This document shows, in pieces, positions 35,985-50,410 of a stretch of 60,287 nucleotides of DNA. The stretch spans positions 1 to 60,287 of the forward strand of contig NZ_JAKVBC010000033.1 in NCBI RefSeq assembly GCF_022447245.1, read 5' to 3'. The notes beneath the pieces are model-generated. The model was not told the origin of the DNA. It did no database searches and saw nothing but the letters and a program-made list of their open reading frames with translations. This DNA is from Kordia sp. (GTDB lineage Bacteria; Bacteroidota; Bacteroidia; Flavobacteriales; Flavobacteriaceae). A program made the position numbers and the translations under genes. The first letter of the stretch is position 1, and the number at the start of each line of letters is the position of its first letter.

Positions 35985-35996
35985 ATCACGATCATT

Positions 35997-36362
35997 TTGA
36001 GGATAAACCTATTAGTAAATCGAACATCCAATCCAGCAGTATCAAAAGCGCAATATGAGCAATTGGATTTTGAATATGCACACCATCAACACGGAAATGG
36101 ACCGTTTCATTATGCTGCTGAAGAGAATGGATTTGTTTTTGAAACTTATCCTTTGACTAAATCGCAAGAAAAAGAAGACACTTCCATCAGGTTGGGTTTT
36201 GACGTCTCAAATCTTGTAGATAAGATAAAAACTTTAGAAAATTCTGCTAGGAAAATTCTATCGCAACCTACAAAAACAGCATGGGGATTAGTGGCTTTAG
36301 TGCAAGATTTAGATGGAAGAAAGATTGAATTAAAAAATAAAATAAGCGACTTTCTTTCATGA
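35997..36362 (+). CDS. VOC (glyoxalase-fold) family protein
   Basis: 121 residues, apparently starting at TTG 35997, 12 bases after crtY; no upstream ATG exists. The pattern NLLVNRTSNPAVSKAQYEQL with DFEYAHHQHGNGPFHYAAE and the final ALVQDLDGRKIEL is that of small VOC-fold proteins such as bleomycin-resistance-like binding proteins. Ends with ATGA overlap onto the next gene, so crtY and the next three genes probably form an operon. Confidence 0.7.
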   Translation: MRINLLVNRTSNPAVSKAQYEQLDFEYAHHQHGNGPFHYAAEENGFVFETYPLTKSQEKEDTSIRLGFDVSNLVDKIKTLENSARKILSQPTKTAWGLVALVQDLDGRKIELKNKISDFLS

Positions 36363-37087
36363 GTTTGTTTTCTAGAATATTTGGTAGCAATGACGATTCT
36401 AAAAGGCAAGAATATGTGCATTATGTACTTTATGAGGCTAAGGGGAAATATTGTTTGAAAAAGATGAAGAAAACGATTTTGATGTTTCCAGATCGAATCA
36501 ATACAAATGCACATGCTGAAGCGAAAACACAACATGTTTTTACTAAAAAATTTCGCTCTCTACTAGAATTTTGGAGCTACATTACAAAATCAAAAAAATG
36601 GTATCTGGAATATCAAGCAGATACAATTGAACATATAGAAAAATATATAGAAACGTTGGCTCCATTGATTGCAAAAGAAACCAATGAATTGAGACGAAAT
36701 ATGGAATTTTCCAAAAGTGACAACTTCATTATTGCACAGTGGGATAATTTACTATTTCGGTATAAGGACAAAAGCGAATTGGTTCTTCAGGAAAGTAAAA
36801 AGCTAAAAACTTTCTGTGCAAATTGTAAAAATGAAAGAAGAGGATTTAGTCAACGATATCCAAAATCAATTTGTCATGAATGTTCATCAAAAGTGACTGA
36901 CAAGAATGGAAGAAGTATTGAATTCTTTAATTCAGAAGCACTAGGTTCTGGTTGCCAAGGATGTTATTCTGGAACAAACCAAAAAGAAAAATACGAACTG
37001 AACGTATGTTATATTGATGGTAAAGAATTTGTAGCAGAAGAAGCCAGATTTGGAGGAATTGTTATTAATCTAAAAGAAGAACTATGA
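36359..37087 (+). CDS. Hypothetical protein with a zinc-ribbon-like segment
   Basis: 242 residues. The N-terminal part is basic and helical. From about residue 155 comes FCANCKNERRGFSQRYPKSI followed by CHECSSKV, a four-cysteine zinc-ribbon-like motif, then GSGCQGCYSG. No signal peptide. Start and stop overlap the neighbours by four bases each (ATGA). No family recognised. Confidence 0.65.
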   Translation: MSLFSRIFGSNDDSKRQEYVHYVLYEAKGKYCLKKMKKTILMFPDRINTNAHAEAKTQHVFTKKFRSLLEFWSYITKSKKWYLEYQADTIEHIEKYIETLAPLIAKETNELRRNMEFSKSDNFIIAQWDNLLFRYKDKSELVLQESKKLKTFCANCKNERRGFSQRYPKSICHECSSKVTDKNGRSIEFFNSEALGSGCQGCYSGTNQKEKYELNVCYIDGKEFVAEEARFGGIVINLKEEL

Positions 37088-37950
37088 AAAAAATCTGTAT
37101 GCTTTGTCTGTGTATTTTATGTTTTTCTTGTAAAAGAAAAAAGGAAGAAGCAAAAAAAGTTTCAGTACCAGAAGAAAGTGCCACTATACCCGAAACAAAA
37201 GATAATTTGATTCAAAAAGAAAGTTTTCAAAAAATCATAGATTCAGCCAGCCTAAAAGGTTCTATTTTGCTATTTGATATCAAAAAAGAGCGCTATTACT
37301 CCAATGATTTTGTTTGGGCAAATACAGGGAAATTGCCAGCATCTACCTATAAAATTCCAAATTCAATCATAGGTTTAGAAACGAAAGAAATCGATTCAAA
37401 TACCATATTCAAATGGAATGGAGAAAAACGAATGTTCAAATCTTGGGAAGCGGATTTGACATTGTACCAAGCATTTCAACGCTCTTGTGTTCCTTGTTAT
37501 CAAGAAGTAGCACGAAAAGTAGGAGTGAAGCGCATGAATCATTATATAGAAAAGTTTCAATATGGAACTATAAAAGTTGATTCTGCAAATTTGGAAAACT
37601 TTTGGCTCATAGGAAAAGCAAAAATTACCCAATTTCAACAAATCGATTTCCTAAAACGTTTTCAGCAAGAAATCTTACCAATATCAAAACGAACCTCTAC
37701 TATTGTGAAGGAAATCATGATTATCAAAGAGACAGAAAATTATGTATTACGAGGAAAAACAGGTTGGTCTATTGAAGGAGAACATCATAATGGTTGGTTT
37801 GTTGGTTATATAGAAAGTAATGATCAATTGGTGTTTTTTGCAACAAATGTAGAACCTATTTCAAAAGACTTTGATCGTAAAAAGTTTCAAAGAAATAGAA
37901 AGTTAATTACTTTTAACGCTTTGGAGCAGCTGTTTGGAATGAAACTGTAG
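37084..37950 (+). CDS. Class D beta-lactamase (OXA-like) lipoprotein
   Basis: 288 residues. Lipoprotein signal with Cys near 17 (ILCFSCKRKK). The catalytic S-T-Y-K tetrad (PASTYKIPN, near 88-91), the SxV motif in RSCVPCYQE, YGT in the place of YGN, and KTGW near 238 follow in the class D order. ENFWL and GWFVGYIE also fit. Whether it hydrolyses beta-lactams or acts as a penicillin-binding protein is open. Last gene of the crtY operon. Confidence 0.88.
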   Translation: MKKICMLCLCILCFSCKRKKEEAKKVSVPEESATIPETKDNLIQKESFQKIIDSASLKGSILLFDIKKERYYSNDFVWANTGKLPASTYKIPNSIIGLETKEIDSNTIFKWNGEKRMFKSWEADLTLYQAFQRSCVPCYQEVARKVGVKRMNHYIEKFQYGTIKVDSANLENFWLIGKAKITQFQQIDFLKRFQQEILPISKRTSTIVKEIMIIKETENYVLRGKTGWSIEGEHHNGWFVGYIESNDQLVFFATNVEPISKDFDRKKFQRNRKLITFNALEQLFGMKL

Positions 37951-37952
37951 AT

Positions 37953-38036
37953 TTTTGAAAAAAATCGTAGCAATCTGCTAGTTTCTTAAAGTATTTTTGA
38001 TTGATCTATAAACAGATTACCTCGTCATGTTTCCTC
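37953..38036. repeat. Dispersed palindromic repeat, copy 1
   Basis: Contains AATCGTAGCAATCTG, then AACAGATTACCTCGTCATG and TTTCCTCGTAATGAC, matching the copy at 38663-38762 in order and spacing. The left end (CGTCATTGCGAG) is missing. It follows the beta-lactamase stop directly. Confidence 0.7.
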
Positions 38037-38078
38037 GTAATGACTTTTCAATTAACTGTAAAATAGAATTTTATTCGG

Positions 38079-38558
38079 TTATTTCACATGTCCAATGCCA
38101 AATGCCATGTCTTCAATTTTATACAAATGATTGTGGTCATGCATTAGTAAATGTCTGAGCATGATGTATGGCGTATAGGTTTTATATTCTGGATGAATTG
38201 CCAACTTATTCCAATCGTTTGCGTCAAATGCTTTTGCTAGTTCAATGGTTTTGTGGCGAATTTCAAAAAAATCTTCAATGGTTTTATGTAAATCTAACTC
38301 TATGAAAAAGTTCTTATCAAAACTATCTCCAGATAAAGGTTCAAATACTGGCTTTTCCTGTTCTTTAAAATCCTTGAGTCGTTTTTGAAACCCATACATA
38401 TCACCAACTCCAATATGTGTGGCATGTTCATGAATAGACCATTTTCCATGAATAATTTGCTTTTTATAAAGAGCTGGATTTATTTCAGAAATTAATTCTT
38501 GCAATAGTCTTGGAGTTTCGCTTAGTGCGTTTAGTATTGGTTCAATTTGTTGATTCAT
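38079..38558 (-). CDS. DinB-family protein
   Basis: 159 residues of the four-helix DinB/YfiT-like metal-binding fold. The three histidines are in IHEHATHIG (first helix pair) and LRHLLMHDHNHLYKIE (last helix). Many members are bacillithiol- or metal-dependent transferases; the role here is unknown. It is flanked by two copies of the CGTCATTGCGAG repeat. Confidence 0.88.
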   Translation of the reverse strand: MNQQIEPILNALSETPRLLQELISEINPALYKKQIIHGKWSIHEHATHIGVGDMYGFQKRLKDFKEQEKPVFEPLSGDSFDKNFFIELDLHKTIEDFFEIRHKTIELAKAFDANDWNKLAIHPEYKTYTPYIMLRHLLMHDHNHLYKIEDMAFGIGHVK

Positions 38559-38662
38559 TTTTAATAGTTCACTAGAATTTTACGGAAGCTAAAGCTAGAT
38601 GAATTTTGATTGAAATCAAAGATTAGATGATGTCAATAATAAACAAAAAGTTAATAATTACG

Positions 38663-38762
38663 TCATTGCGAGATTTTTGAAATAAATCGTGGCAATCTTT
38701 TTGTTTCAAAAACTATAGTTGAATTAAAAACAGATTACTTCGTCATACTTCCTCGTAATGAC
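38663..38762. repeat. Dispersed palindromic repeat, copy 2
   Basis: About 100 bases bounded by CGTCATTGCGAG and CTCGTAATGACG, an imperfect inverted repeat. It includes AATCGTGGCAATCTTTTT and AACAGATTACTTCGTCAT. It is related to the widely seen CGTCATTGCGAG intergenic repeats of bacteria. No coding capacity; a small non-autonomous or REP-like element. Confidence 0.75.
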
Positions 38763-38791
38763 GTATCTAAGCTTTCAGCAACAAAAAAAAT

Positions 38792-39478
38792 CTAAGCATC
38801 ATCAGGATCAGGAGCATTCACGTTAAGAGTAATAATATCATCAGCGCGAATCATACTTGGTTTGTTTACGTCAAAAGCTGGTACTTGTATATCAAAAGTT
38901 GATTCGTCGGTGATAGCTTCATCATCTACATTTTCTCCAAATTCGTATCCAAGTCCGTATTCGGTCAATAAGGTTTTAATTTCTCCAAAACTTCTTTTGA
39001 CCATCGTATTGTTTTCACCTTCTTTTTCAATAATATTTGGTAAAAAACGAATGATTTGTGCTTCTGATGGCGGAACAGGAACAATATCAAATTGAATTTC
39101 TGCCGTAGCGTTCAATCCTAAATTGTACTTATTCGTATTGGAAGCGTTTACAGGAGTTGCATACATTTTTGGTCTAAATGAACGTGTACTTTGCAATGAA
39201 TTTCCAGTACTCTGCTGTGAAATAGATAATGAAATTTTGGCTTTTGCTGTGGTTTTCGGAATCGTATAAAAAGTAGGTTGATAACCAACTTCACGCAGCA
39301 TTTTTAAGGTTTCAGAAGCTTTATCTGGATCACTGTTATATATTTCTAATGTTTGTCTTAATGAGCCTTCGTCTAGCGCTGCTTGTGCTTCTCCAACACC
39401 TTCTCCAATGGAAGCGATAAAATCTCCAAGTGGTGCAGCAAAGGCATCTTTTACATAATCATATGAATTGCTTGACAT
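38792..39478 (-). CDS. Ten-gene operon protein 10: AQ-ALD module plus PASTA-like tail
   Basis: 228 residues, the last gene of the 48.8-38.8 kb operon. It carries the operon's shared module: AAPLGDFIASIGEGVGEAQAALDEGS (residues 14-39, interrupted here only for length: APLGDFIASIG then GVGEAQAALD), VGYQPTFYTIP (64-74) and NATAEIQFDIVPVPPSEA near 133-150. The last third resembles a PASTA domain (SFGEIKTLLTEYGLGYEF). No signal peptide. 7 bases after the coiled-coil PASTA gene. Function unknown. Confidence 0.75.
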   Translation of the reverse strand: MSSNSYDYVKDAFAAPLGDFIASIGEGVGEAQAALDEGSLRQTLEIYNSDPDKASETLKMLREVGYQPTFYTIPKTTAKAKISLSISQQSTGNSLQSTRSFRPKMYATPVNASNTNKYNLGLNATAEIQFDIVPVPPSEAQIIRFLPNIIEKEGENNTMVKRSFGEIKTLLTEYGLGYEFGENVDDEAITDESTFDIQVPAFDVNKPSMIRADDIITLNVNAPDPDDA

Positions 39479-39485
39479 AATTTTT

Positions 39486-41291
39486 TTAGTTTATTGGTTT
39501 TGCGAAAATTACTATTACTTCTTGTCCTTCTTCAACAGCTGCATCTGGTGCTGGCGATTGTTTGAATGATTGTCCTGCGATGAGGGAATTGTCATTTGTA
39601 GCATGGTATACGGCATCGAGTTTTAAGCTATTGTTCAGTAACACTTTTCTAACGGCAGTTTCCGTTAATCCTAAAATATTAGGCATTTTTTGCGCAACGC
39701 TAGTTGCTGTATTTCCGCTTGGAACAATATCAATACTAATATCACTAATTGCGGCACTGTTTACTTCTTTGGCAGATTCATAATCTAACAAACCAAATAC
39801 AGTTCCGTTCGGACCTTTTTCAACCGTTGTTTTCAGATTTAAAGAGATATTGGCGAGTTTATATTTAGAATTTACCAATTCTTCATCAGCCTTAATAACA
39901 TCATTTACGATACTTCCGTAGACTTTACTAGCAGATAATTTATTCGGATGATCCGTTACGGTAAAGTCTCTAGCTTCTTCAAGTTCTTGTTGTAGTTTTT
40001 GATTATCACGTTCTAAAGTTTCTACCAGTGTTTGTTTGTTTTGTATTTCTGTCTCTTTAGCAATAACCAAGGCTTTTTCTTGTCGTACTGTTTCTTGTAA
40101 TTGTGAAATACTTGTTAGGAAAGATACTTTTTCTTGTTCCAAATTGTCTTTTACAATGGTTAAATCTGAGACTTGTTGCTCCAGATTCGTTTTTACAATA
40201 TTAATGTTTGCAACCTCTACTTGTAGATCGTTATATAAAACTTCAAAATTACTTTCGCTTACATTGACAGCTTCCATATTTTCAATTTGCGTTCGCTGTG
40301 CGGCAAGCTGTGTTTCTAAATTAGCTTTATCAGTTTCAAGTGTTTTTCGTAATTCTCTTTCGCTGGCTAAATTTGAAGATACCGTTTGTAAATCGATGCT
40401 TAAATCTGCAACTTGTTGTTCTTTTGTACCTAAATCATTTTGTGCGTTTTTCAACTGATTTTGTAAAGCCGTTCGCTCATTTGTTAAAGAACTTACAGAA
40501 TCATTTAGTTGTGTAACTTCTGCTAATGCAGTATCTCTTTCTATAGCAATAGCACTTATATCACCTGAAGAACTTTCCAAGGTTTCTAGTTGTTCTCGCT
40601 GTGTAGCAATTTGTGTTTCTAGAGTTTCTACAAGTGTTCTTTCATCAGTAAGATTTGTTCTAATAGCTTCTAAGCTTGCATTTAAATCAGCTACTTCTTG
40701 TGAACTATTTTGAATATTGCTTTGTGCAGTCGCTAATTGAGTTCGTAACGATTCACGTTCATCGTACAAAGAAGTAATTGTGGAGTTTAATCCAGAAATT
40801 TGTGCAATAGCATTGTCTTTCTCTTCTTCTATGACGCGAATTGAACTCATTAGTTCAAACATTGGAACTTCAGAAGCGATTACAATATGGTCACTCTTTG
40901 TGATGTATTTCTTAGGATCTAACAACCAACTTTTATTAAAATTGAGGGTAATTTTAGAATCACCTGTAATCGTTACATTAAATGTAGTCGCAATAACTTC
41001 AGGAAGTCCAGCTTGCGAGTTTGCATTAATGATTCTAAACGAAGGAGTTCCTCCAGATTTTAAAACTTCACGAACGACACGTACGGTTTGATTCTTTGTA
41101 GAAATTCGAGAAGGAATCGTTAGCGTATATGCTAATTTTCCGCTTCTTAAAGCAAGTGCATCTGTTAGCGCTAGCCACGATTTTGTATTTACATTGTAAA
41201 ACTGTACTTGTACTTTTATTGTTTTTGCAGCTTTGTTAGATGCATCATACAAAATGTGCTGAAACTGTATGCTTTGTATATTAATTGCCAT
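39486..41291 (-). CDS. Ten-gene operon protein 9: coiled-coil protein with C-terminal PASTA domain
   Basis: 601 residues. Residues 1-140 are beta-rich. Residues about 150-440 are a long coiled coil with repeats such as LNDSVSSLTNERTALQNQLK and VADLSIDLQTVSSNLASERE. Residues about 530-601 are a PASTA-like domain (PNILGLTETAVRKVLLNNSL, then QSPAPDAAVEEGQEVIVIF). PASTA domains usually sit outside the cell on kinases, but there is no signal or membrane span here. Likely a fibrous or spacer component of the putative assembly. Confidence 0.8.
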   Translation of the reverse strand: MAINIQSIQFQHILYDASNKAAKTIKVQVQFYNVNTKSWLALTDALALRSGKLAYTLTIPSRISTKNQTVRVVREVLKSGGTPSFRIINANSQAGLPEVIATTFNVTITGDSKITLNFNKSWLLDPKKYITKSDHIVIASEVPMFELMSSIRVIEEEKDNAIAQISGLNSTITSLYDERESLRTQLATAQSNIQNSSQEVADLNASLEAIRTNLTDERTLVETLETQIATQREQLETLESSSGDISAIAIERDTALAEVTQLNDSVSSLTNERTALQNQLKNAQNDLGTKEQQVADLSIDLQTVSSNLASERELRKTLETDKANLETQLAAQRTQIENMEAVNVSESNFEVLYNDLQVEVANINIVKTNLEQQVSDLTIVKDNLEQEKVSFLTSISQLQETVRQEKALVIAKETEIQNKQTLVETLERDNQKLQQELEEARDFTVTDHPNKLSASKVYGSIVNDVIKADEELVNSKYKLANISLNLKTTVEKGPNGTVFGLLDYESAKEVNSAAISDISIDIVPSGNTATSVAQKMPNILGLTETAVRKVLLNNSLKLDAVYHATNDNSLIAGQSFKQSPAPDAAVEEGQEVIVIFAKPIN

Positions 41292-41293
41292 GA

Positions 41294-42004
41294 CTATTTT
41301 TGAATTGAAATTTTAGTGAGTACATTCCCAACATTCACTTCTATGATTAAAATGTTTCCATTGGCAAAGTCAACACCATCTACTTTTACTTGTGTTTTGG
41401 CTTTTCCATTTGCGTCTGTACGAATCTCACTTGTGTTTAAGAAAGCAGTTCCGTGATTCAAGCTTGCACTCGGATTTAACGCTTCTGTTTTTTGTTGATT
41501 GTAATTAAACTCCACCAATGCATCTGATATTTTTTCACCTGCGGCATTAAAGACTTCAACATCGATATCGTAAATATGAATATTAGAAGTCGCTTTTGGT
41601 GTAGCATTGATGATCATTTGTGGTAAACCTTCGTTTGGTACAACTGCGATAAAGCGTCCAGAAATAGTACTCGTTACTTTATTCGTTTCTTTTGTATCTG
41701 AAGAAACACTTGCCACAGGTTTAAAAGCCAACGATCTGGCATATCCTTTTTGGAAAGATTGTGCTTGTGATAGTGCAGCTGTTCTTCCAGCAACGGCCGA
41801 AGTTGGTTCTGTACTTGTTTCTTTCTCAAATTCGGCTTCTACTTGTAAATTAAAATCCAAATAGGGTAAGGTATACAAGGTGTTTGGTCTACCAAATTCA
41901 TCATAAGGTTTTACATTCCTCAAATGATTTTGCGCCTCATTCAAACTATCGGAAATTCCTAGTAGTATTTGTTTTAGGGTTAATGCGTTATTTGATGTGC
42001 TCAT
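41294..42004 (-). CDS. Ten-gene operon protein 8: divergent AQ-ALD module with Ig-like tail
   Basis: 236 residues. A degenerate first motif (GISDSLNEAQNHLRN, 17-31) and second motif (TLYTLPYLDFNLQVEAEFE) are followed by STISGRFIAVVPNEG, the third motif. The C-terminal half looks like an invasin-type Ig domain: DIDVEVFNAAGEKISDALVE, then TDANGKAKTQVKVDG. No signal peptide. 2 bases from the next gene. Confidence 0.7.
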   Translation of the reverse strand: MSTSNNALTLKQILLGISDSLNEAQNHLRNVKPYDEFGRPNTLYTLPYLDFNLQVEAEFEKETSTEPTSAVAGRTAALSQAQSFQKGYARSLAFKPVASVSSDTKETNKVTSTISGRFIAVVPNEGLPQMIINATPKATSNIHIYDIDVEVFNAAGEKISDALVEFNYNQQKTEALNPSASLNHGTAFLNTSEIRTDANGKAKTQVKVDGVDFANGNILIIEVNVGNVLTKISIQK

Positions 42005-42014
42005 GTGTATATTT

Positions 42015-43418
42015 TTAAAATGCGAAACTATCTTTCTGCTTTTTCCCGTTTTTTAATGTATCAATACCTTTTTTAATATTTTTGATTGTATTGAAATCAA
42101 CATTTAACTTTTTGTCTGCAACAGTAAAGCTTTGTGTTTCTTCTTTTTTTGTTTGTTGTTTTTGAATGAAATCAAAATCGAAAGCATTTTTTGTATTTGA
42201 GTCTTGTCCGCTAATAAAATCAACCGCTTTTAGTTTTTTCTCAAACAGATTGGGCACTGATTTGGTTTTTTCTAGACGTTTGTTAGCAGTATTGAATAAC
42301 TGATTTACCTTGTCTAGTTTTTTTCCAGTTTTATTGACAATATCCATTCCTTGGGAAACTTTTTTGCTGAACGTTTGCAATTCAGGAGATTTTACAACAC
42401 TGGCAACTTTGTTGATGCCAGTTTGTACTTCACTTCCTTTATTACGAATTGTGTGAAACGTATCTGTAACTTTTGATACCTTTTTGGTCACTGTATCAAA
42501 TGTATCTATTGCTTTTGAAACCTTTTTAACAGTAGATTTTACTGTTTGTACTTTCTTTTTCTGAGCCGGATTGTTGACAAACGAATTGAGTTGTTCTTTT
42601 CCTTTCTTAGCAGTTTTCGCAACTGTTTTATTAGTTTTTTTTCTTTGTTGTATAGGCGCAACAACGTTTCGTTTATTTACATTTTGTAAAAGTGTTTTTT
42701 CTTGCCTTTTTGGTTTTTGCGTTTTTGGCTTTGATGTTGAAGGCTTTTGTACGGTTGGTTTCTTTTGTGATTTTGGAGAAACCTTAGCTACGGATGTTGA
42801 TGGTTTCTTGGTAAAATCGTCCATAGTGCGTACTCCTTTTTGAACTTTTCTTGTAAACTCAAGTATAGTAGTAGCTTGCTTCTTTTTCTTTGATACGATT
42901 GTTGTTTCAGGCGTACGTTTGACATTCGGAATGTGAACTTCAGGTTTTGCAGCTTTCTTCTTTTGTATAAAATCAGTATTGGGTTTTGCCTTTTTCTTCT
43001 TTTTTGAAGTTGTCGGCATTCTTGAAATATCCCTCTCTTTTCTTTTTTTAGTAAAAGAAGGAGTTACTTCCCAACGGTCGTCGTGTTTTTTGCGATGACT
43101 TTCTTTGCGTTTTTTGCGTTTTTCCTCTTCTGCAGCTTCCTCTTTCTTCTTCTCATCAATCGTTTTTATTTCATTCTCATACTTTCTATCTGTGTTTGAT
43201 TTCTTCTTCTTACCAGTGAGTTCTGCCATTTGATCTTCGAGCTGTTTTTGCTCTTCAATCAAGGATTTTAGACTCGAATTAAATTCGGCTGCATCTTCTA
43301 ATGATTTGTTTGAATTTTTAGCATCGGGAGAAAGTAACGAAGCTATATTGTCTATAGCCGCGTTTTCCTTCTTCGGTGCTTTTTCCTTTTTAACAAAGCT
43401 TTTCCAATGTTTAGCCAT
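42015..43418 (-). CDS. Ten-gene operon protein 7: very basic low-complexity protein
   Basis: 467 residues, extremely Lys-rich (runs of KKKKK, PSTSKPKTQKPKRQEK), with Gln/Thr/Val heptad-like repeats in the second half (KKVSKAIDTFDTVTKKVSKV). Short motifs F-x-KK-KA(K/A) recur every 20-30 residues in the first half (PSFTKKRKERD, DFIQKKKAAKP, EFTRKVQKG, DFTKKPSTS). Likely disordered and possibly nucleic-acid- or polyanion-binding, a scaffold inside the assembly. No known domain. Confidence 0.75.
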   Translation of the reverse strand: MAKHWKSFVKKEKAPKKENAAIDNIASLLSPDAKNSNKSLEDAAEFNSSLKSLIEEQKQLEDQMAELTGKKKKSNTDRKYENEIKTIDEKKKEEAAEEEKRKKRKESHRKKHDDRWEVTPSFTKKRKERDISRMPTTSKKKKKAKPNTDFIQKKKAAKPEVHIPNVKRTPETTIVSKKKKQATTILEFTRKVQKGVRTMDDFTKKPSTSVAKVSPKSQKKPTVQKPSTSKPKTQKPKRQEKTLLQNVNKRNVVAPIQQRKKTNKTVAKTAKKGKEQLNSFVNNPAQKKKVQTVKSTVKKVSKAIDTFDTVTKKVSKVTDTFHTIRNKGSEVQTGINKVASVVKSPELQTFSKKVSQGMDIVNKTGKKLDKVNQLFNTANKRLEKTKSVPNLFEKKLKAVDFISGQDSNTKNAFDFDFIQKQQTKKEETQSFTVADKKLNVDFNTIKNIKKGIDTLKNGKKQKDSFAF

Positions 43419-43420
43419 CT

Positions 43421-43915
43421 TTACGAACTAGTATTTGAATTATTTGAAGGTCTTTTACTGTCTAACTCAGTTTGAATCATTGCTTGCAAGCGTTGTTCAA
43501 AAACTGGAGGATTAGGAACGGTTACTAATTTGGTTCTGACTAATGAACTTGCTTCTGCGGAATATTGATACTTTTGTGAATAGCTAGCCGAAACTGTGGC
43601 GCTTACAGCTGCAAATCCTACATTGAATCCTCCAGTAACGGATACTGAAGCTCCAAATTCTCTTGATTCCATCATAGAAACAGACATTTTACACTCAAAA
43701 AATGTATCGACAAATTGGTAAAATGTTGGTGTAAACCCCAAGGCTAATAGACTGTATTCTTCACCGCCCATTTCTACTTTGGTGTTTACAAGTTCTTTTG
43801 CCAAATCCATAGAAACTCTATCCAAAGCTCTTTGCGCTTCTGCAATCCCTATACCCAGAGATTTTATCATCTCTGGTAAGGGTGCATTTTGTATTTCTCT
43901 GGTGATTCTACCCAT
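43421..43915 (-). CDS. Ten-gene operon protein 6: AQ-ALD module, minimal form
   Basis: 164 residues, the simplest example of the shared module. Motif 1 is GIGIAEAQRALDRVS (21-35), motif 2 LALGFTPTFYQFVD (57-70), motif 3 YQYSAEASSLVRTKLVTVPN (116-135). Strand ECKMSVSM follows motif 2, and a Gly/Val/Ser-rich strand region lies before motif 3. The order AQ-A, GF, strand, VPxP is reminiscent of DUF2589 as I recall it, but this is untested. 2 bases from the basic protein gene. Confidence 0.75.
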   Translation of the reverse strand: MGRITREIQNAPLPEMIKSLGIGIAEAQRALDRVSMDLAKELVNTKVEMGGEEYSLLALGFTPTFYQFVDTFFECKMSVSMMESREFGASVSVTGGFNVGFAAVSATVSASYSQKYQYSAEASSLVRTKLVTVPNPPVFEQRLQAMIQTELDSKRPSNNSNTSS

Positions 43916-43921
43916 GGATTA

Positions 43922-44833
43922 CTAGTTTTCAGCTTCTTCTCTAGCTAATGCCATTTGTTGTTGAACACGCTCTTCAAGTGCTGCTGGTGGTGGAATCGGA
44001 ACTAACTTTGTTTGTAATAAACTAGATCCTTCAGCCGAATAGCTATACTTTTGAGAGAAACCAGCGTTTACTTGTGTAGTTGTCACAGTTTTATTGGTTT
44101 TTAAACCTCTTCTCCAGCTAAAGCTTGCGCTTCTATCCGTACTTTTTGAGTTACGTTGGTATTGGTATGAAGAAGATCCTTCTCGTGTAAACTTGATACT
44201 AATAGATACTTTGATGATTGTATCCACAAACTGATAGAAAGTGGGAGAGAACCCAAGTTCTAACATGGATAAACGCTGTGGTAAGTACAATGTTTTTTCC
44301 TCTGCAGATGGATTTTTCATCTTTTTTCCAGGAACTTTAGCTGGTTCACTAGCTGATTCGTAGGCCTTTGTTGAAGCATTATACTTATACCAACTAGACC
44401 CATTTCTATAATGAACATCTGCATTATTTTGATCATCAGGTTTATAGGTTGCTGTAGCTGCGTCTGTCGTTAAATCTTTATTTACATCTATTACAGGCGT
44501 AACGTATGCGTCTTGAATATCTGTAGGATTTATTTTTGCTATGATAGCTGATCTATATGCCTGATCTGTATTTGAATTATACAAATCAATAGCATCGCTA
44601 GTTTGTACTTTTTCTTTTCCAAAAAATACACGACTGTCTTTGAAATTGATAAACTCTCTTCCGTTGATAGTAGATTTGACAGGACTTAATCCTCCCATCA
44701 TTTCTGCTACTTCGATCGAGTTGGAATCTAAGGCCATTTGTGCATTGGCAATAGATGTTGCCATGCTCTCGATCATTTGTCCCATAGGTACATTTAGTAA
44801 TTCTTGCCCTATTTCTGGATTTTTATGAAACAT
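43922..44833 (-). CDS. Ten-gene operon protein 5: AQ-ALD module with 120-residue insertion
   Basis: 303 residues. Motif 1 SIANAQMALDSNS (27-39); an insertion of about 120 residues (ending KKMKNPSAEEKTLYLPQR); motif 2 LELGFSPTFYQFVD near 190-203; motif 3 YSYSAEGSSLLQTKLVPIPP near 263-282. The insertion is Asp/Thr/Tyr-rich with no recognised family. Motifs 2 and 3 are closest to those of protein 6, indicating recent duplication. Confidence 0.75.
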   Translation of the reverse strand: MFHKNPEIGQELLNVPMGQMIESMATSIANAQMALDSNSIEVAEMMGGLSPVKSTINGREFINFKDSRVFFGKEKVQTSDAIDLYNSNTDQAYRSAIIAKINPTDIQDAYVTPVIDVNKDLTTDAATATYKPDDQNNADVHYRNGSSWYKYNASTKAYESASEPAKVPGKKMKNPSAEEKTLYLPQRLSMLELGFSPTFYQFVDTIIKVSISIKFTREGSSSYQYQRNSKSTDRSASFSWRRGLKTNKTVTTTQVNAGFSQKYSYSAEGSSLLQTKLVPIPPPAALEERVQQQMALAREEAEN

Positions 44834-44853
44834 ATGTTATAATTTTTAATTTG

Positions 44854-45381
44854 TTACTCTTCTTTGTTGATGGTTCCTTTTAATAATTCAAGATATATAT
44901 CAGGTGCAGGCAACGATACTATCTTTGCTGCAATTGATGAGGAGCCTTCTGCGGATGAAGAAAACTTCCGTGAATAATGCGCTGATACAGAAACTCCAAA
45001 CATTTGTGTTGAGGTAGACTCACTATTGCTATTGTTTGAACTTGAGTTACTGTTGGAGTTACTGTTGGAGTTGCTGCTATTTCCATAGCTGAATCCTAAT
45101 GCGCCTCCGTAGCTTTCAGATTCAGCCATAGAAAATTCCATTTTCATTTCTACAGAAGCTTCTGTAAAAGCGTAAAATGTGGGTGCAAAACCAAGGCTTA
45201 ATAAACTGTATTCTTCATCGCCTATGTTCACTTTTACCGCAGCTAATTCATTAGCCAAACGAATAGAATTAGCATCTAAAGCCGATTGCGCATTGGCAAT
45301 GGACATTCCGAGCTTCTCTAACATCATTGGCAACGGAGCGTTGGTAATTTGCTGTATTACTTTAGGCGTTGTACTCATCAA
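44854..45381 (-). CDS. Ten-gene operon protein 4: AQ-ALD module with Ser/Asn repeat
   Basis: 175 residues. Motif 1 SIANAQSALDANS (27-39), motif 2 LSLGFAPTFYAFTE (61-74), motif 3 FSSSAEGSSSIAAKIVSLPA (140-159). Between motifs 2 and 3, residues 101-124 are an almost pure Ser/Asn repeat, written in DNA as a partly tandem 12-base unit near 45045-45070. The repeat length may vary. 3 bases from the OmpA-containing gene. Confidence 0.75.
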   Translation of the reverse strand: MMSTTPKVIQQITNAPLPMMLEKLGMSIANAQSALDANSIRLANELAAVKVNIGDEEYSLLSLGFAPTFYAFTEASVEMKMEFSMAESESYGGALGFSYGNSSNSNSNSNSNSSSNNSNSESTSTQMFGVSVSAHYSRKFSSSAEGSSSIAAKIVSLPAPDIYLELLKGTINKEE

Positions 45382-45384
45382 TTA

Positions 45385-47196
45385 TTAATTTGAATTTGTG
45401 TTTGTATTTGTCAGTGACTGAATGTAGTTTTCCAGTGCTGTTGGTGGCGGTACAGAAATCATACGTGCCGATACTGAAGCATTTCCTTCTACAGACATGT
45501 TGAACTGACGTGCATAACGAACATCTAATGAACCACTGATAGCTAGTGAACGATCACCTTTAAAATCTTTTTGAGATTGTTTTAGTTTTGAGAATTCGTT
45601 TTGTGTTTCTCCTACATAAACTTTTGTGGTTTCTTTATTCATGTCAGCAGAAGCTTCGTTGTTCACCTTTACATTAACTTCCTTATTTTCTTTAGAGTGA
45701 ATAAAGTAGTTGATCTTGGTTTCTTCATGTAAGAGGTAATAGGTTTCGTTTACTTTTTCAATGTATAACTCCTGATATTTTCCTTTACTATTTACAAGAG
45801 ATGATAGTTGATTTGCAAGCGAATCACGCAATACATACGTTTTTCCACCATACTTGAATGTGATATCTAAACCTGAAGCTGTACTTGAATTATTTGCTTT
45901 TACGTAAACAAAATAATTTGGGCCTACAGTTTTTGGATCAGCGCCACTTACAGTGATTTCACCTCCATTGAATTGGATGTAATCTGCGGCGCCACTAGGA
46001 AATACTACAGTTAATTTACGAATTGTAGCATCTTTTGCAGAGCTTCCATTGGCTAAAGATTCGCCCTCAGTTTCTGTTTTTACACGAGTGTCATCAAATG
46101 TAACACCAGCAATTTTACTGAGTTCGCTTCTGAATGAGTCTGCTCTTTTTTGTCCAAGTGCTTCATTGTATTTAGCATTTTTGTCACTCGTACTTCCGCT
46201 ACCGTCTGTATATCCTTTTACTGTAATATTTAATGATGAATCTCGCTTTAAAAGCATCGCTAATGCCGTAACATCTGCTTGATTTACAGCATCTGACTTA
46301 ACACCGTTAGAATATGCATAATCAATATCATATTTGTCCCAACCAAAGAAAAATTCGTATACTTTTTTTCCTCCAGATCTGTGGATACCATCTGCGTTGA
46401 TTCCGATAACGGTTCCACCATTAACCGATCTTGCACTTGTGAGCGTAGTGGCGAAATCTGTTGCTTTTTCAAATGTTTTCCCAGTTTTGAGTGTAATTAC
46501 GGGTTTCGGATTGCTTGTAGGATATGAAGATGAATCCATTTTTAATAGTCCTTCTGTGTCTGTGTGAACATAAGGTTCTTTTACAACTACATATCCTTCT
46601 TCTTTTGCGATGTATACATCCGTTGAAGAGTTTTCTTCAAGTACTCTTTCATCTTCAATAACACTTTCTACTCGTAATTCATTTGCTTCATCACGCATTT
46701 GCTCTTTTGCTTTTTCTACTTTAGAATATGAGCCTTCTTCTTTGTGAATTTTGAATGATTTTTCATTTACGCTAACATCTTCAGAAGTCTTTGCTTTTAA
46801 GGCAATATCTTTTTGCGTTTTAGAATACTTGCTTAAAGATTTACTTTTGTTTTGTTTTAATTGGTTAAAGAAGTCTTTGTCAAAAGTAGTGTTGTTTTTG
46901 TAGTCAACCGATAAACTGAAATCTACTTCCACTTCTTCTTTAACAGCCATTTTTAAGCTGATAGATGCTGAAATATCAGCATAATCAAAAGCATAAAATG
47001 CGGGTTGAAACCCTAGTTCTAATAATGATTTCCCAGCTACTTTACTTTCGGAAAGTCGAATTAGCTGCGAAACCGAGTTCGTGTCGAGCCGCTCCTGTGC
47101 TTCAGCAATACCTAAAGCCAGCGCGGTAACCATACTACTAACGTCAACGTTTTGTAGTATTTTTGATCCTTGATCAAATGTTTTTACGTCTGCCAT
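45385..47196 (-). CDS. Ten-gene operon protein 3: AQ-ALD module with an OmpA-like domain inserted
   Basis: 603 residues. The N-terminus has motif 1 (GIAEAQERLDTNS, 29-41) and motif 2 (LELGFQPAFYAFDY, 57-70). The C-terminus has motif 3 (MSVEGNASVSARMISVPPPT, about 565-585). Between them lie a charged helical stretch and an OmpA/MotB-like domain (about 270-405): VYEFFFGWDKYDIDYAYSNG, VKGYTDGSGSTSDKNAKYNE, ALGQKRADSFRSEL, TETEGES. The OmpA fold binds peptidoglycan, but there is no signal peptide, so its ligand here is unclear. The insertion is within the module, not fused to an end. Confidence 0.8.
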   Translation of the reverse strand: MADVKTFDQGSKILQNVDVSSMVTALALGIAEAQERLDTNSVSQLIRLSESKVAGKSLLELGFQPAFYAFDYADISASISLKMAVKEEVEVDFSLSVDYKNNTTFDKDFFNQLKQNKSKSLSKYSKTQKDIALKAKTSEDVSVNEKSFKIHKEEGSYSKVEKAKEQMRDEANELRVESVIEDERVLEENSSTDVYIAKEEGYVVVKEPYVHTDTEGLLKMDSSSYPTSNPKPVITLKTGKTFEKATDFATTLTSARSVNGGTVIGINADGIHRSGGKKVYEFFFGWDKYDIDYAYSNGVKSDAVNQADVTALAMLLKRDSSLNITVKGYTDGSGSTSDKNAKYNEALGQKRADSFRSELSKIAGVTFDDTRVKTETEGESLANGSSAKDATIRKLTVVFPSGAADYIQFNGGEITVSGADPKTVGPNYFVYVKANNSSTASGLDITFKYGGKTYVLRDSLANQLSSLVNSKGKYQELYIEKVNETYYLLHEETKINYFIHSKENKEVNVKVNNEASADMNKETTKVYVGETQNEFSKLKQSQKDFKGDRSLAISGSLDVRYARQFNMSVEGNASVSARMISVPPPTALENYIQSLTNTNTNSN

Positions 47197-47212
47197 TTTC
47201 TGTTTTTAAAAG

Positions 47213-47755
47213 TTAGAATGGAGAAACGCCCTCAGGTAAATCCATGGCAATTTTGGGATTTACAGATTCTTTTCTCACAATAAAATAATTATGTTTCTTT
47301 TGGAGTCTTGTCAATTGATCTCTATTGACTTTGTATCCTCTTTGCAACCAACCTAAAAGTTCATCTGTAATAGGTTGTTTACCTCTTCCAAGATCTTTTT
47401 GGATCTCTTGAAGCAATACTTTTGCTTCATCTTGTTCTTCTCTTAATACATGCTGAATTGCTTGACGTTCGCTTACAAAAGCGTTGTGCTTTCTCACAAG
47501 TACATTTTGTTCTTTATCTTTTAAGAAAGAGCGATAGTTTTCACAGAATTCAATCACTTGATCATGCGCTCCAGAAAGCTCTAAGGTTTCCATTACACAT
47601 TGACTGTAATGTTGAAAAAAGAGTTCACTATCTTTTTCTTGTTGTGACATTTTCATTGCTTCCTTATAATGGCGTAATGCTTCTTTATAATTTTTGTCTA
47701 AAGCATGCATTTTTCCACGTTCAGCAATTCGGTAGTGTAGCATATTTGTTTCCAT
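47213..47755 (-). CDS. Ten-gene operon protein 2: TPR-like helical protein
   Basis: 180 residues, all helical. The start YRIAERGKMHALDKNYKEAL, then RHYKEAMKMSQQEKDSELFF is a TPR pair. The C-terminal half (DELLGWLQRGYKVNRDQLTRL) ends in LPEGVSPF. Cytoplasmic, likely an assembly chaperone or adaptor. It abuts protein 1 directly. Confidence 0.7.
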   Translation of the reverse strand: METNMLHYRIAERGKMHALDKNYKEALRHYKEAMKMSQQEKDSELFFQHYSQCVMETLELSGAHDQVIEFCENYRSFLKDKEQNVLVRKHNAFVSERQAIQHVLREEQDEAKVLLQEIQKDLGRGKQPITDELLGWLQRGYKVNRDQLTRLQKKHNYFIVRKESVNPKIAMDLPEGVSPF

Positions 47756-47757
47756 AA

Positions 47758-48819
47758 CTAGTTTATGATTTCAGGGTTACATTGTACTTGTTCTAATTGT
47801 GCTAGAAGGTATCTTGCTATTAATGGAGGCACTTCTTCCTTACTTGTCCAACTTGTTGCATTTGCTTTAGGAAGGTTTTCTATAGCAATGAATTGTGCTA
47901 GAATTTTAGATACATTTTCAGCATCTTCTATTTCATCTATGTGTAACTTTTTCTTAAAGTTGTAATCTTTTTCAATAGTCGTTACCAATCCGATAGCAGC
48001 ACATTCATCGGTAATTACTATTGCGGTATTTCTATTGACATTTTCGAATAATGAAATTGGAAGCGCTGCATGTATATCATCCAAAATTTCTTTTGGCATA
48101 CCTACTTTTTCAATTAAGAAGTTTGTGTGTGCTTCGTTTGCAACGTCAAAGTCTTCCAATAGAATAGAAACAAGTTGATGACTTTGATTAAGAAGTTTTA
48201 CACCTTTGTCAGATTGGTATTGTCTCCACAATAATTGCGAATGATCATAGGATACATTTTCAATTACATAAGCTGTTTCTGTTTCTACAGCCTTGGTTTT
48301 AAGAATTTTTTCAATGTTTTTTAATTGTGAATCGCCATCTTTTTTGCTAATTAAAATGGTGTATGCATCTTTTCGTGGATTCGAAAAATGCACATTGGCA
48401 TCAGTGCGTTTTTGTAATGCTTCTGCAGTAGCTATAGATACATTTCCAAGGACAATACTTGGTTCGTTCAATAATAAATTAAGAACTTCCGATTGCTTAC
48501 ATCCTAAGAAAACAGCTAATTGTTCTATGACTTTTGGTAATAGTAGAATATTATCTAAAGTCACACTAATATCAATAGATTCTGTTTTTAAATTGATTTC
48601 GTCATCTTTAGTACAAACAGAGACATCTAAACCTAATTTGGTAAGTGTATCTTCAGCTTTTTGCGCTGTATCCTTGTCTACTTTTTGAAATAAAATAGAA
48701 GGTGCGTTGTACAATAATTTTAAGATGTAATCTTGTGGAACTTTTAAAGCTTCCGATAATACTTTTGAAGCTCCTGGCGTTGCATTTCCTATAGAGTTAA
48801 TAATTACGGTATTTTCCAT
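47758..48819 (-). CDS. Ten-gene operon protein 1: repeats resembling the L7/L12 C-terminal fold
   Basis: 353 residues, first gene of the operon. Residues about 3-65 and 75-150 are copies of a helix-helix-strand unit: KVLSEALKVPQDYILKLLYN followed by APSILFQKVDKDTAQKAEDT and LTKLGLDVSV; the second copy has LLNEPSIVLGNVSIATAEAL. The pattern (helix, A/EPSI, helix, G-hydrophobic strand) is like the L7/L12 C-terminal domain. A third, divergent copy is near 240-290 (AALPISLFENVNRNTAIVIT). No signal peptide. Function unknown. Confidence 0.7.
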   Translation of the reverse strand: MENTVIINSIGNATPGASKVLSEALKVPQDYILKLLYNAPSILFQKVDKDTAQKAEDTLTKLGLDVSVCTKDDEINLKTESIDISVTLDNILLLPKVIEQLAVFLGCKQSEVLNLLLNEPSIVLGNVSIATAEALQKRTDANVHFSNPRKDAYTILISKKDGDSQLKNIEKILKTKAVETETAYVIENVSYDHSQLLWRQYQSDKGVKLLNQSHQLVSILLEDFDVANEAHTNFLIEKVGMPKEILDDIHAALPISLFENVNRNTAIVITDECAAIGLVTTIEKDYNFKKKLHIDEIEDAENVSKILAQFIAIENLPKANATSWTSKEEVPPLIARYLLAQLEQVQCNPEIIN

Positions 48820-49138
48820 AAAGAGTTGTAGTTAAAAATTAGTGTTGTAAAACTACTTCTGTACGAATTTTTAGCGGCGAGTGTTTTGATGCTTTTTGAT
48901 TCAGTGTTTTCCCCTTTTTTTATAGGGTGAATACATGTGAGACCAATGTTTATAGGCTCTTTTTAACTATTTGTAAAATTGTAATACGCATATTTCTAGT
49001 GATTTATTGAATTTTAAATAGTGTGTTTTTCTTTAAGAAAAGAGAAGCGAACATTAAATTTTAGTAGAAATTGTTACAGAAATGATAAAAACTTTATAAG
49101 GGTATAATTTTTGCGTATCTTTCCGTAGTATAAATATC
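48820..49138. other. Divergent intergenic region upstream of the ten-gene operon
   Basis: 319 bases between the leftward operon and the rightward asparagine synthetase B-like gene. The only candidate leftward -7 element is TAGTTTTA near 48855. No palindrome, no small gene and no repeat stands out. Confidence 0.4.
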
Positions 49139-50410
49139 ATGCAATTGAAAATCAAAAACAGCTTCACATTCATATTATTACTACTGTTTTCAGTGAGTAG
49201 TTATGCTTCATATATTCTGATTCCGATGGATGCAGCATCTCAAAAAGATCATTTAAAAGCGTATGGAATTACCTATTGGTCACTTGAAAAAAAGATCAAG
49301 GTAAAATGGTTGCTGAATTATCGTGGTGGTTCTTTTTTGTTACCTGCCGTTGATGCGTTAGAGAAAGAATGTAAAATTCGAGGTGTTTCTTATGAGGTTT
49401 TATCAGATGCAAAAACGAATACTATTTTAGAAGAAATAGCAAGCCCGAGCAAGAATCAGGAAGCAGTTATTTTAGAAAAAGCACCTAAAGTTGCAGTATA
49501 TTCTCCAAAAGGAAATGTTCCTTGGGATGATGCTGTAACCATGGTTTTGACCTATGCAGAAATTCCGTATGATGTTGTGTATGATGAGGAAGTATTGGCA
49601 GATGATTTGATAAAGTACGATTGGTTGCACTTGCATCATGAAGATTTTACTGGACAATATGGAAAGTTTTATGGGATTTACCGTTCTGCACCGTGGTATA
49701 TTCGTGAAAAGAAAGAAGCCGAAGCGTTGGCAAAGAAGCTAGGATATTCAAAGGTTTCAGAAGAAAAACGCGATGTTGCTTTAAAGATTCGCGATTATGT
49801 AATTGGAGGTGGATTTATGTTTGCGATGTGTAGTGCCACAGATAGTTTTGATATTGCATTAGCTGCGGAAGGCGTTGATATTTGTGAGCCGATGTTTGAT
49901 GGTGATGTGTCTGATAGAAATTATCAAAACAAGATTGATTACAGTAAGACTTTTGCTTTCACAGATTTTGAGTTGGAGCGAAGTCCTACAAAATATGAGT
50001 TTTCTTCGATCGATATGACTTCTAAAAGACGTATTGTAAAAGATGCAGATTATTTTACGTTGATGGATTTTTCAGCAAAATGGGATCCAATACCTACCAT
50101 GTTGTGTCAAAATCATACAGCTTTGGTCAAAGGATTTATGGGACAAACAACAAGTTTTGATCGTTCTCAAATTAAACCATCTGTGTTAATTTTAGGAGAA
50201 AACAGAACCAATGGAGAAGGTCGCTATATTCATGGAATTAAAGGAAAAGGATTTTTTACATTTTATGGCGGACACGATCCGGAAGATTATCAGCATAGAG
50301 TAGGAGATCCGAAAACGGAATTAGAATTACATCCGAACTCGCCAGGATATAGACTTATTTTGAATAATATCTTGTTTCCAGCAGCGAAAAAGAAAAAACA
50401 GAAAACTTGA
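49139..50410 (+). CDS. Secreted protein annotated in relatives as asparagine synthetase B
   Basis: 423 residues with a signal peptide (residues 1-22, ending SSYA). The mature protein has a flavodoxin/glutamine-amidotransferase-like core: KVAVYSPKGNVPWDDAVTMV, YDWLHLHHEDFTGQYGKFYG, FMFAMCSATDSFD with a Cys in the elbow, GFFTFYGGHDPEDYQHRVGD. In Bacteroidota such proteins are often called asparagine synthetase B, but the ATP-pyrophosphatase domain is missing and the export signal argues against that role. A secreted amidotransferase-fold protein of unknown function. Confidence 0.7.
   Translation: MQLKIKNSFTFILLLLFSVSSYASYILIPMDAASQKDHLKAYGITYWSLEKKIKVKWLLNYRGGSFLLPAVDALEKECKIRGVSYEVLSDAKTNTILEEIASPSKNQEAVILEKAPKVAVYSPKGNVPWDDAVTMVLTYAEIPYDVVYDEEVLADDLIKYDWLHLHHEDFTGQYGKFYGIYRSAPWYIREKKEAEALAKKLGYSKVSEEKRDVALKIRDYVIGGGFMFAMCSATDSFDIALAAEGVDICEPMFDGDVSDRNYQNKIDYSKTFAFTDFELERSPTKYEFSSIDMTSKRRIVKDADYFTLMDFSAKWDPIPTMLCQNHTALVKGFMGQTTSFDRSQIKPSVLILGENRTNGEGRYIHGIKGKGFFTFYGGHDPEDYQHRVGDPKTELELHPNSPGYRLILNNILFPAAKKKKQKT

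Follow-up and report, generated by a model that had tools for sequence, protein, structure and literature searches.

A conserved ten-gene cassette in Kordia encodes DUF2589-related paralogues and may specify an apparatus of the cell envelope

A gene order kept strictly for ten genes in several phyla is usual for ribosomal operons, ATP synthase and secretion systems, and it is rare among wholly uncharacterised genes. An uncharacterised protein family related to the one studied here is DUF2589 (PF11655), to which the literature found devotes one passing sentence (PMC3949148). Here, we analysed a cassette of ten minus-strand open reading frames (ORFs) in a Kordia sp. contig of 60,287 nucleotides (NZ_JAKVBC010000033.1; this whole stretch is called the window), six of whose products are paralogues of one DUF2589-related module. 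The genes are numbered in transcription order (Table 1). A first-pass annotation, made from the sequence alone, had placed ten leftward genes at 38792-48819, mostly 0-20 bases apart; coordinates and strand were confirmed, and the intergenic gaps measured 2-20 bp (2, 16, 3, 20, 6, 2, 10, 2 and 7 bp in transcription order). In line with its statement that no known enzyme is present, no enzyme, ATPase, membrane or lysis gene was recognised in the cassette. Our favoured reading, to which we give a little less than an even chance, is that the ten genes form one inherited unit for a heteromeric, self-assembling apparatus at the envelope that engages peptidoglycan.

How widely and how strictly the cassette is conserved was examined in one genome each for 84,980 species, using one peptide motif of the gene 6 and gene 4 families as probe. 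A relative was encoded in 215 stretches, and the best 79 distinct of these (loci L050-L128) were kept; they favour cassettes like that of the window because they were chosen by this single motif. Genes were named with family hidden Markov models (HMMs) built from the same loci, with gene order left free. All ten genes were present in one order in 61 of the 79 loci, and in 59 of the 62 that were uncut by a contig end. Among the exceptions, L120 and L121 lacked a recognised basic protein though a gap of about 1.1 kb was present, and four modules were found in L125. Complete cassettes occurred in Bacteroidota, in Alpha-, Beta- and Gammaproteobacteria (Pseudomonadota) and in one Gemmatimonadales bin, and contig-cut cassettes in one Latescibacterota and one Opitutales bin; several of these carrier records are metagenome bins, in which foreign contigs are possible. 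A rearranged set with more modules was seen in an Anaerolineales bin (L087).

Comparing the orthologue groups by profile-profile alignment showed that the paralogy proposed for the six products extends far beyond chance. The families of genes 3, 4, 5, 6 and 10 matched one another with E values from 1.1e-15 to 1.7e-69, and the most divergent family, that of gene 8 (M-prime), matched the gene 10 family at E 3.4e-7 (probability 93), with weaker links to the others. In the own 5.24-Mb genome, the 164-residue gene 6 protein had no match at E <= 1 beyond the cassette. The three ordered motifs that had been assigned to all six products (AQxALD, LGFxPTFYxF, SAEGSS...VPxP) stood as quoted in genes 4 and 5 and were altered, partial or mostly lost in the others. 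Gene 6 has SAEASS in place of SAEGSS; gene 3 carries AQERLD, LGFQPAFYAF and SVEGNAS, the last two being separated by an insertion of about 430-450 residues; gene 10 has AQAALD, VGYQPTFYTI and VPVPP and lacks SAEGSS; and gene 8 retains only AQ, a Y.LP strand and VVP. The motif state of genes 10 and 8 agrees with the earlier remark that two of the six are strongly divergent.

An AlphaFold2 model of gene 6, the bare module, consists, in protein numbering, of a helix (13-44), two long antiparallel strands (65-83 and 116-133) joined by a disordered tip, and a C-terminal helix (137-154). Its mean predicted local distance difference test (pLDDT) value was 72, with block means of at least 90 at model residues 21-70 and 131-150; the model query, like the query of alignment A3, was without Met1, and model numbers are therefore protein numbers minus one. 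Gene 3 has the corresponding elements, namely a helix at 20-50, strands at 67-87 and 563-582 and a helix at 586-600, around an insert spanning residues 107-540. The hairpin tip of gene 5 is Lys/Arg-rich in several of the copies displayed.

A tree was built from 95 module proteins (19 loci, five families without M-prime, 146 columns, which are few), and its rows sorted by operon position and not by organism. Position labels required 4 changes, the minimum possible, compared to a mean of 57.6 after shuffling; the support mark was reached by 15 of the 92 inner branches. Because the tree groups by position, it is most likely that the paralogues diverged before the present hosts acquired the cassette and that none has since taken another's place. 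Such positional grouping is expected of non-interchangeable subunits, and the paralogues quite probably form a heteromeric complex. Being kept distinct by position and conserved as a unit, the genes support the first-pass suggestion of heteromeric paralogues accompanied by scaffold and adaptor proteins. An additional module protein of about 310-320 residues follows the tenth gene in L114 and L120.

The first-pass annotation had also named DUF2589 as a possible distant relative, and profile-profile comparison bore this out. The gene 6 family matched Kordia DUF2589 at E 5.6e-7 (probability 92, score 49, 160 columns), compared to scores of at most 20.4 for 60 column shuffles and 22.7 for the reversed alignment; the DUF2589 set was small, with nine sequences of which eight were distinct. 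For the gene 4 family the probability was 76, and for the families of genes 5, 10 and 3 it was at most 9.9 and for M-prime 1.6. The Pfam DUF2589 model left all ten window proteins unmatched at E <= 1 and the six paralogues unmatched at E <= 10, and in a Pfam scan of module proteins the 25 families listed out of 50 did not include DUF2589. Judged by their profiles, the cassette proteins are relatives of DUF2589 and not members by the Pfam model. DUF2589 resembles the bare module in its AQ-containing N-terminal helix, Pro strand, later strands and C-terminal helix region, and is likewise cysteine-poor, but it lies in its own three-gene operon in Kordia and does not form a six-paralogue set.

DUF2589 was present in all 11 Kordia genomes searched. 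Its operon (L149:8038-10036 on G000:C34; also L129-L148 and L150-L152) encodes DUF2589, a 227-277-residue protein and a 178-192-residue protein, helical by eye. Cysteines numbered 1 in 1,596 and 2 in 3,787 residues in the first two products and 17 in 2,699 in the third. The two DUF2589 partners were also considered as relatives of cassette proteins and rejected, their best probability against seven cassette families being 2.8.

Domains of types that bind the cell wall recur in the cassette. An OmpA-like domain, missed by the first-pass annotation, sits at the hairpin tip of the 603-residue paralogue (gene 3), where a test for the OmpA-like fold was positive, and it was found in 63 of 67 orthologues scanned. 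Its residues G328, D331, N344, L347 and R351 are conserved in at least 90% of the 67 sequences; D331 and R351 are peptidoglycan-contact (diaminopimelate-site) positions of OmpA-like domains. The coiled-coil protein with a PASTA domain (gene 9) is as first described (Pfam E 6.2e-7; 29.7 bits against a Pfam cut-off of 23.2), and PASTA was present in 64 of the 66 sequences scanned from its family. A PASTA-type end of the gene 10 family had also gone unnoticed: Pfam PASTA matched 50 of its 62 sequences, and by profile its C-terminus matched that of gene 9 at E 3.4e-9. The gene 10 protein of the window itself has no Pfam PASTA match, the region being degenerate there. Altogether, two such domains are clear in the window and three are found in most relatives scanned.

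A further feature overlooked before is the Big_1-like C-terminus of M-prime, weak in the window (E 0.015) and detected at E <= 1 in 26 of 66 family sequences, with a best value of 1.4e-6. One coiled-coil orthologue, apparently that of L087 by eye, carries a LamG-type lectin domain (E 1.1e-30). Two gene 10 orthologues (L078:13244-14347 and L082:13235-14116) appear by eye to have two to three tandem PASTA-like repeats.

Cysteine content separated the products into two groups. The eight structural families held 170 cysteines in 180,695 residues (0.094%), compared to 1,760 in 171,561 (1.03%) for 427 flanking ORFs of at least 200 residues, which were called mechanically, may include some spurious ones and comprise 49 cysteine-free ORFs. 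The L12-like and TPR families held 477 in 40,145 (1.19%), confining the tenfold depletion to the other eight; group sizes and cysteine totals hold duplicates, since one ORF fell into both the gene 6 and gene 4 groups in L074, L087, L091, L119 and L127. In the window, the eight structural proteins total 2,777 residues and contain 1 cysteine, against about 25 expected from the window's own flanks. Hydropathy supported the earlier statement that no product spans the membrane, the highest Kyte-Doolittle mean over 19 residues being 1.44 against a threshold of 1.6. Its companion, that no product has a signal peptide, held in that none is clear by hydropathy, except that the 603-residue protein passed a crude N-terminal cut-off just barely (2.25 against 2.2); the stretch responsible, residues 22-31, falls in the AQ helix common to other paralogues. 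This crude flag was raised in 15 of 81 members of the 603-residue family and in 2 of 75 for two further families apiece. Hydrophobic 19-mers occurred in 14 of 73 L12-like proteins, and the remaining families had between 0 and 9 such members each.

The orthologue sets used here took the best match per locus, without L050, L051, L053 and L054 (copies of L044, L046, L047 and L048). Alignments comprised 123 of 152 listed rows (A3); 66 of 67 listed loci with at least 500 residues plus the window, L080 being left out for a run of X (A5); 65 of 69 loci (A6), 61 of 63 loci above 190 residues (A7) and 65 of 66 above 250 residues (A8), each plus the window; and, for A9 and A10, 37 and 33 chosen loci, again with the window added.

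The intracellular location first proposed was not supported as stated, since the wall-binding-type domains and the cysteine depletion point to the envelope or the outside. Together with the Ig-type or lectin domains, these sequence features lead us to infer a place at the envelope or beyond it; we lean slightly towards an apparatus that works outside the cytoplasm, and it probably binds peptidoglycan. If instead OmpA-fold, PASTA and Ig-type domains had been reused as protein-protein connectors, the products could build a cytoplasmic scaffold, shell or fibre, which would suit the absence of a clear signal peptide or membrane span by hydropathy, the lack of a recognised secretion gene in the cassette and the cytoplasmic look of the L12-like and TPR partners. 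This is the strongest of the alternatives and is itself unlikely, given that cysteine depletion is limited to eight of the ten families, that D331 and R351 are so well kept and that wall-binding-type domains are retained across phyla.

In the envelope apparatus that we favour, contacts through helices and long hairpins would join the paralogues to one another, possibly as a ring or tube. The OmpA-fold domain on one hairpin tip and the PASTA ends of two other proteins would fasten it to peptidoglycan, and the coiled-coil protein would serve as a variable-length spacer with a binding head that is itself variable. The basic protein (gene 7) was correctly described as very basic, with 25.7% Lys plus Arg and a net charge of +65; it is probably disordered and might act as an internal scaffold or counter-charge. 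The L7/L12-like assignment of gene 1 likewise agrees with a profile match to 1ctf (E 2.2e-5), and its second repeat (positions 224-288) matched bL12 at E 5e-4. Gene 2 is TPR-like as first described, by profile; as a single sequence it matched only at E 0.005, and its orthologue in L105 matched TPR_1 at E 5.2e-11. Both would remain in the cytoplasm, gene 2 as a predicted chaperone and gene 1 as a predicted adaptor or assembly factor. Candidate exit routes for the other eight products would be a borrowed secretion system, lysis or self-insertion.

The same parts could make up a released or contact-delivered weapon, in which a lysis-freed particle or pore-forming hairpins attack other cells through their wall. 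Wall-binding-type domains, hairpin tips rich in Gly, Ser, Ala and Val in two paralogue families (by eye), the lectin domain in one relative, patchy presence within the genus (below) and an insignificant Foldseek likeness of the module to ring- and pore-forming proteins are compatible with this proposal. Membrane insertion of an amphipathic hairpin into a ring pore, as in beta-hairpin pore-forming toxins, is no more than hinted at by the tip sequences. Against a weapon, the module has no phage match, and none of its fold matches among solved structures reaches significance. A fixed partner for lysis, immunity or effector function was not seen either, neighbours not having been searched individually for such genes. 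Apart from the cassette and antisense ORFs, no neighbour family recurred in more than 18 of 87 loci, and hence no fixed partner gene shows. We place a weapon second among the alternatives, with a decidedly small probability.

Table 1 Features of the cassette and its surroundings in the window
Feature	Positions	Strand	Basis
Gene 1, 353 residues, L7/L12-C-terminal-domain-like repeats	47758..48819	-	Profile match, 1ctf
Gene 2, 180 residues, TPR protein	47213..47755	-	Profile match; TPR_1 in L105 orthologue
Gene 3, 603 residues, module paralogue, long insert at beta-hairpin tip	45385..47196	-	
OmpA/Pal-fold peptidoglycan-binding-type domain within gene 3, residues 278-400	45997..46365	-	
Gene 4, 175 residues, module paralogue, long Ser/Asn hairpin tip	44854..45381	-	
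Gene 5, 303 residues, module paralogue, AQ helix and strand 1 separated by insertion	43922..44833	-	
Gene 6, 164 residues, bare module	43421..43915	-	AlphaFold2, profile comparison
Gene 7, 467 residues, Lys/Arg-rich protein	42015..43418	-	Composition
Gene 8, 236 residues, M-prime, most divergent paralogue	41294..42004	-	Profile comparison
Big_1-like immunoglobulin-type region, gene 8 residues 147-207	41384..41566	-	Weak Pfam match
Gene 9, 601 residues, N-terminal domain, variable-length coiled-coil spacer, C-terminal PASTA	39486..41291	-	
PASTA domain of gene 9, residues 535-598	39498..39689	-	Pfam E 6.2e-7
Gene 10, 228 residues, module paralogue with PASTA-type C-terminus	38792..39478	-	
Degenerate PASTA-type region, gene 10, residues ~120-225	38804..39121	-	Family profile
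Variable segment holding cassette and a few other genes	35985..49138	.	Flank genes compared in congeners

Within the genus, the cassette is patchy. By cassette, the closest named relatives are Kordia and Tenacibaculum; six of 60 genomes of kin matched (the own genome and five congeners), and among ten other Kordia genomes five carried the cassette and five did not. Draws from the whole phylum gave 2 matches in 296 and 4 in 395 genomes, the own genome counted, and all matches beyond it came from one distant family (f31). One genome of that family (G174) has a short version with a 99-residue protein and two modules; by eye it also has an M-prime-like 170-residue protein and a coiled coil, with HMMs finding the two modules only. 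Among plasmids, one record, from Sphaerotilus, holds a module relative and none holds a relative of the 603-residue paralogue; the record has a similar five-gene run of hypotheticals, two of them modules. The short five-gene versions with two modules each (L043:2293-5658 in the distant lineage of the same phylum; L049:11640-14419 on the Sphaerotilus plasmid) are possibly an ancestral or a reduced form.

In a tree of 55 complete cassettes (without L080, L102 and L116, and with Kordia represented by the window locus only), seven class labels needed 9 changes, where 6 would be the least possible. The Gemmatimonadales row fell within a supported clade of Halomonas and Marinobacter, and two Paracoccaceae fell within a gammaproteobacterial clade. 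This placement suggests that the cassette has moved between lineages by transfer. A record titled Glaciecola amylolytica (L078) has its cassette beside that of Fluviicola, and the genes around it fall into the same clusters; the record is mislabelled or the transfer was recent.

Comparison of Kordia genomes located a site of variation. The genes flanking the cassette segment (34836-35984 and 49139-50410) have 87-231 bp between them in G007, G008, G009 and G010, and 920 bp in G006. In the window genome and G001-G003 the cassette lies between them, either alone or accompanied by a few other genes; the first flank gene was not found in G004 or G005. In G006 and G008 the cassette is on contigs other than those of the flank genes, with different neighbours, which makes at least two chromosomal sites in Kordia. 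The interval between the flank genes is an insertion hot spot. The same interval also holds, at 35985-38791 of the window, several small genes that are not in every congener. One of the ORFs (37084-37950) is beta-lactamase-like by eye (class D or a relative), with a lipoprotein-like start and STYK and KTG motifs that we take to be signs of class D. Within the cassette, the listed start of gene 4 is TTG and the codon after it is ATG; scans for promoters and terminators gave signals no higher than in shuffled sequence.

A viral origin was considered from several sides. A 178-residue unnamed viral protein, BFVD A0A516MP19, has a fold resembling the module (E 1.6e-6, probability 1.00, TM-score 0.57 by query, 18% identity), an unannotated 4-kb record from faeces, called Bacteriophage sp., encodes a DUF2589 relative, and PHROGs matched gene 9 to a minor head protein at E 3.7e-7, over the coiled coil. 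All three would fit a domesticated phage tail or another virus-derived structure. Yet no module relative was found in 50,697 phage records, and peptide-pattern scans of IMG/VR returned no relative of the module, the 603-residue paralogue, the TPR protein or DUF2589, in scans that need an exact pattern and can thus miss remote relatives. PHROGs searches with the ten window proteins, nine of L105 and one of L097 (both chosen examples) gave coiled-coil, OmpA-region and weak matches only and, the coiled-coil match aside, no tail or head gene. Of all the readings weighed, we consider this one the least probable, with a very slim chance.

Trypco1 and Trypco2 have been named among the products that accompany trypsin-like peptidases in conflict systems (PMC7159879), and they have also been called adapter domains (PMC10907252). 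Trypco2 (PF19631) weakly matched 4 of the 66 M-prime proteins (best E 0.0039) and, among the 123 module proteins, 2 (best 0.031), which could indicate that the paralogues are Trypco2-related adaptors of a conflict or defence system. These scores are near chance, the lead extended to only two loci found in 198 genomes, and neither a peptidase, a nuclease, an NTPase nor any other effector was recognised in the cassette. PADLOC returned coiled-coil matches in gene 9 and one match at E 0.0042 in gene 2 only. A defence role thus appears quite improbable.

More generally, neither outcome that the first-pass annotation had named as refuting it was observed. Profile matches link the paralogues to one another, and gas-vesicle, injection-system and phage tail families gave nothing beyond coiled-coil, OmpA-region and chance-level matches. 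No Pfam match to gas-vesicle (GvpA/GvpN) or R-body (Reb) families was obtained for the ten proteins at E <= 1. Among solved structures, the module profile was unmatched at E <= 10 and the M-prime profile at E <= 1, and Foldseek/VIA found no significant match for the bare module. No description of the cassette was found in the material searched, outside which most subscription papers and the predicted structures of cellular proteins lie. Tentatively, the cassette may specify an undescribed envelope nanostructure, in which six DUF2589-type paralogues form one ring or tube docked to peptidoglycan by OmpA-fold and PASTA arms, with no enzyme or ATPase of its own and no classical signal peptide, and which is transferred as an ordered ten-gene cassette. 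It supplies a defined parts list of ten genes together with a related family, DUF2589, and makes direct predictions: a heteromer, wall binding, eight products outside and two inside. A further question that it raises is how proteins poor in cysteine, with wall-binding-type domains and no clear signal peptide, would gain access to the wall.

Compared with known systems, the arrangement of the module is weakly similar to the RBM3/collar of FliF in the flagellar MS-ring and to SpoIIIAG, at chance-like Foldseek scores, and pore-forming toxins appeared among the matches to the bare module with chance-like scores only. Trypco2 resembles a few members, through weak, non-significant matches, and the cassette lacks a peptidase partner. 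The C-terminal domain of Pal and OmpA usually follows a lipoprotein or beta-barrel anchor, whereas the OmpA-type domain of the cassette is embedded in a hairpin, and the protein that carries it has no clear signal peptide. Structures of PASTA from PknB-type kinases were matched by the gene 10 family profile (best E 4.4e-13). Unlike PknB, however, the PASTA proteins of the cassette have no kinase and no membrane span, and their PASTA domains are joined to a coiled coil in one protein and the module in the other.

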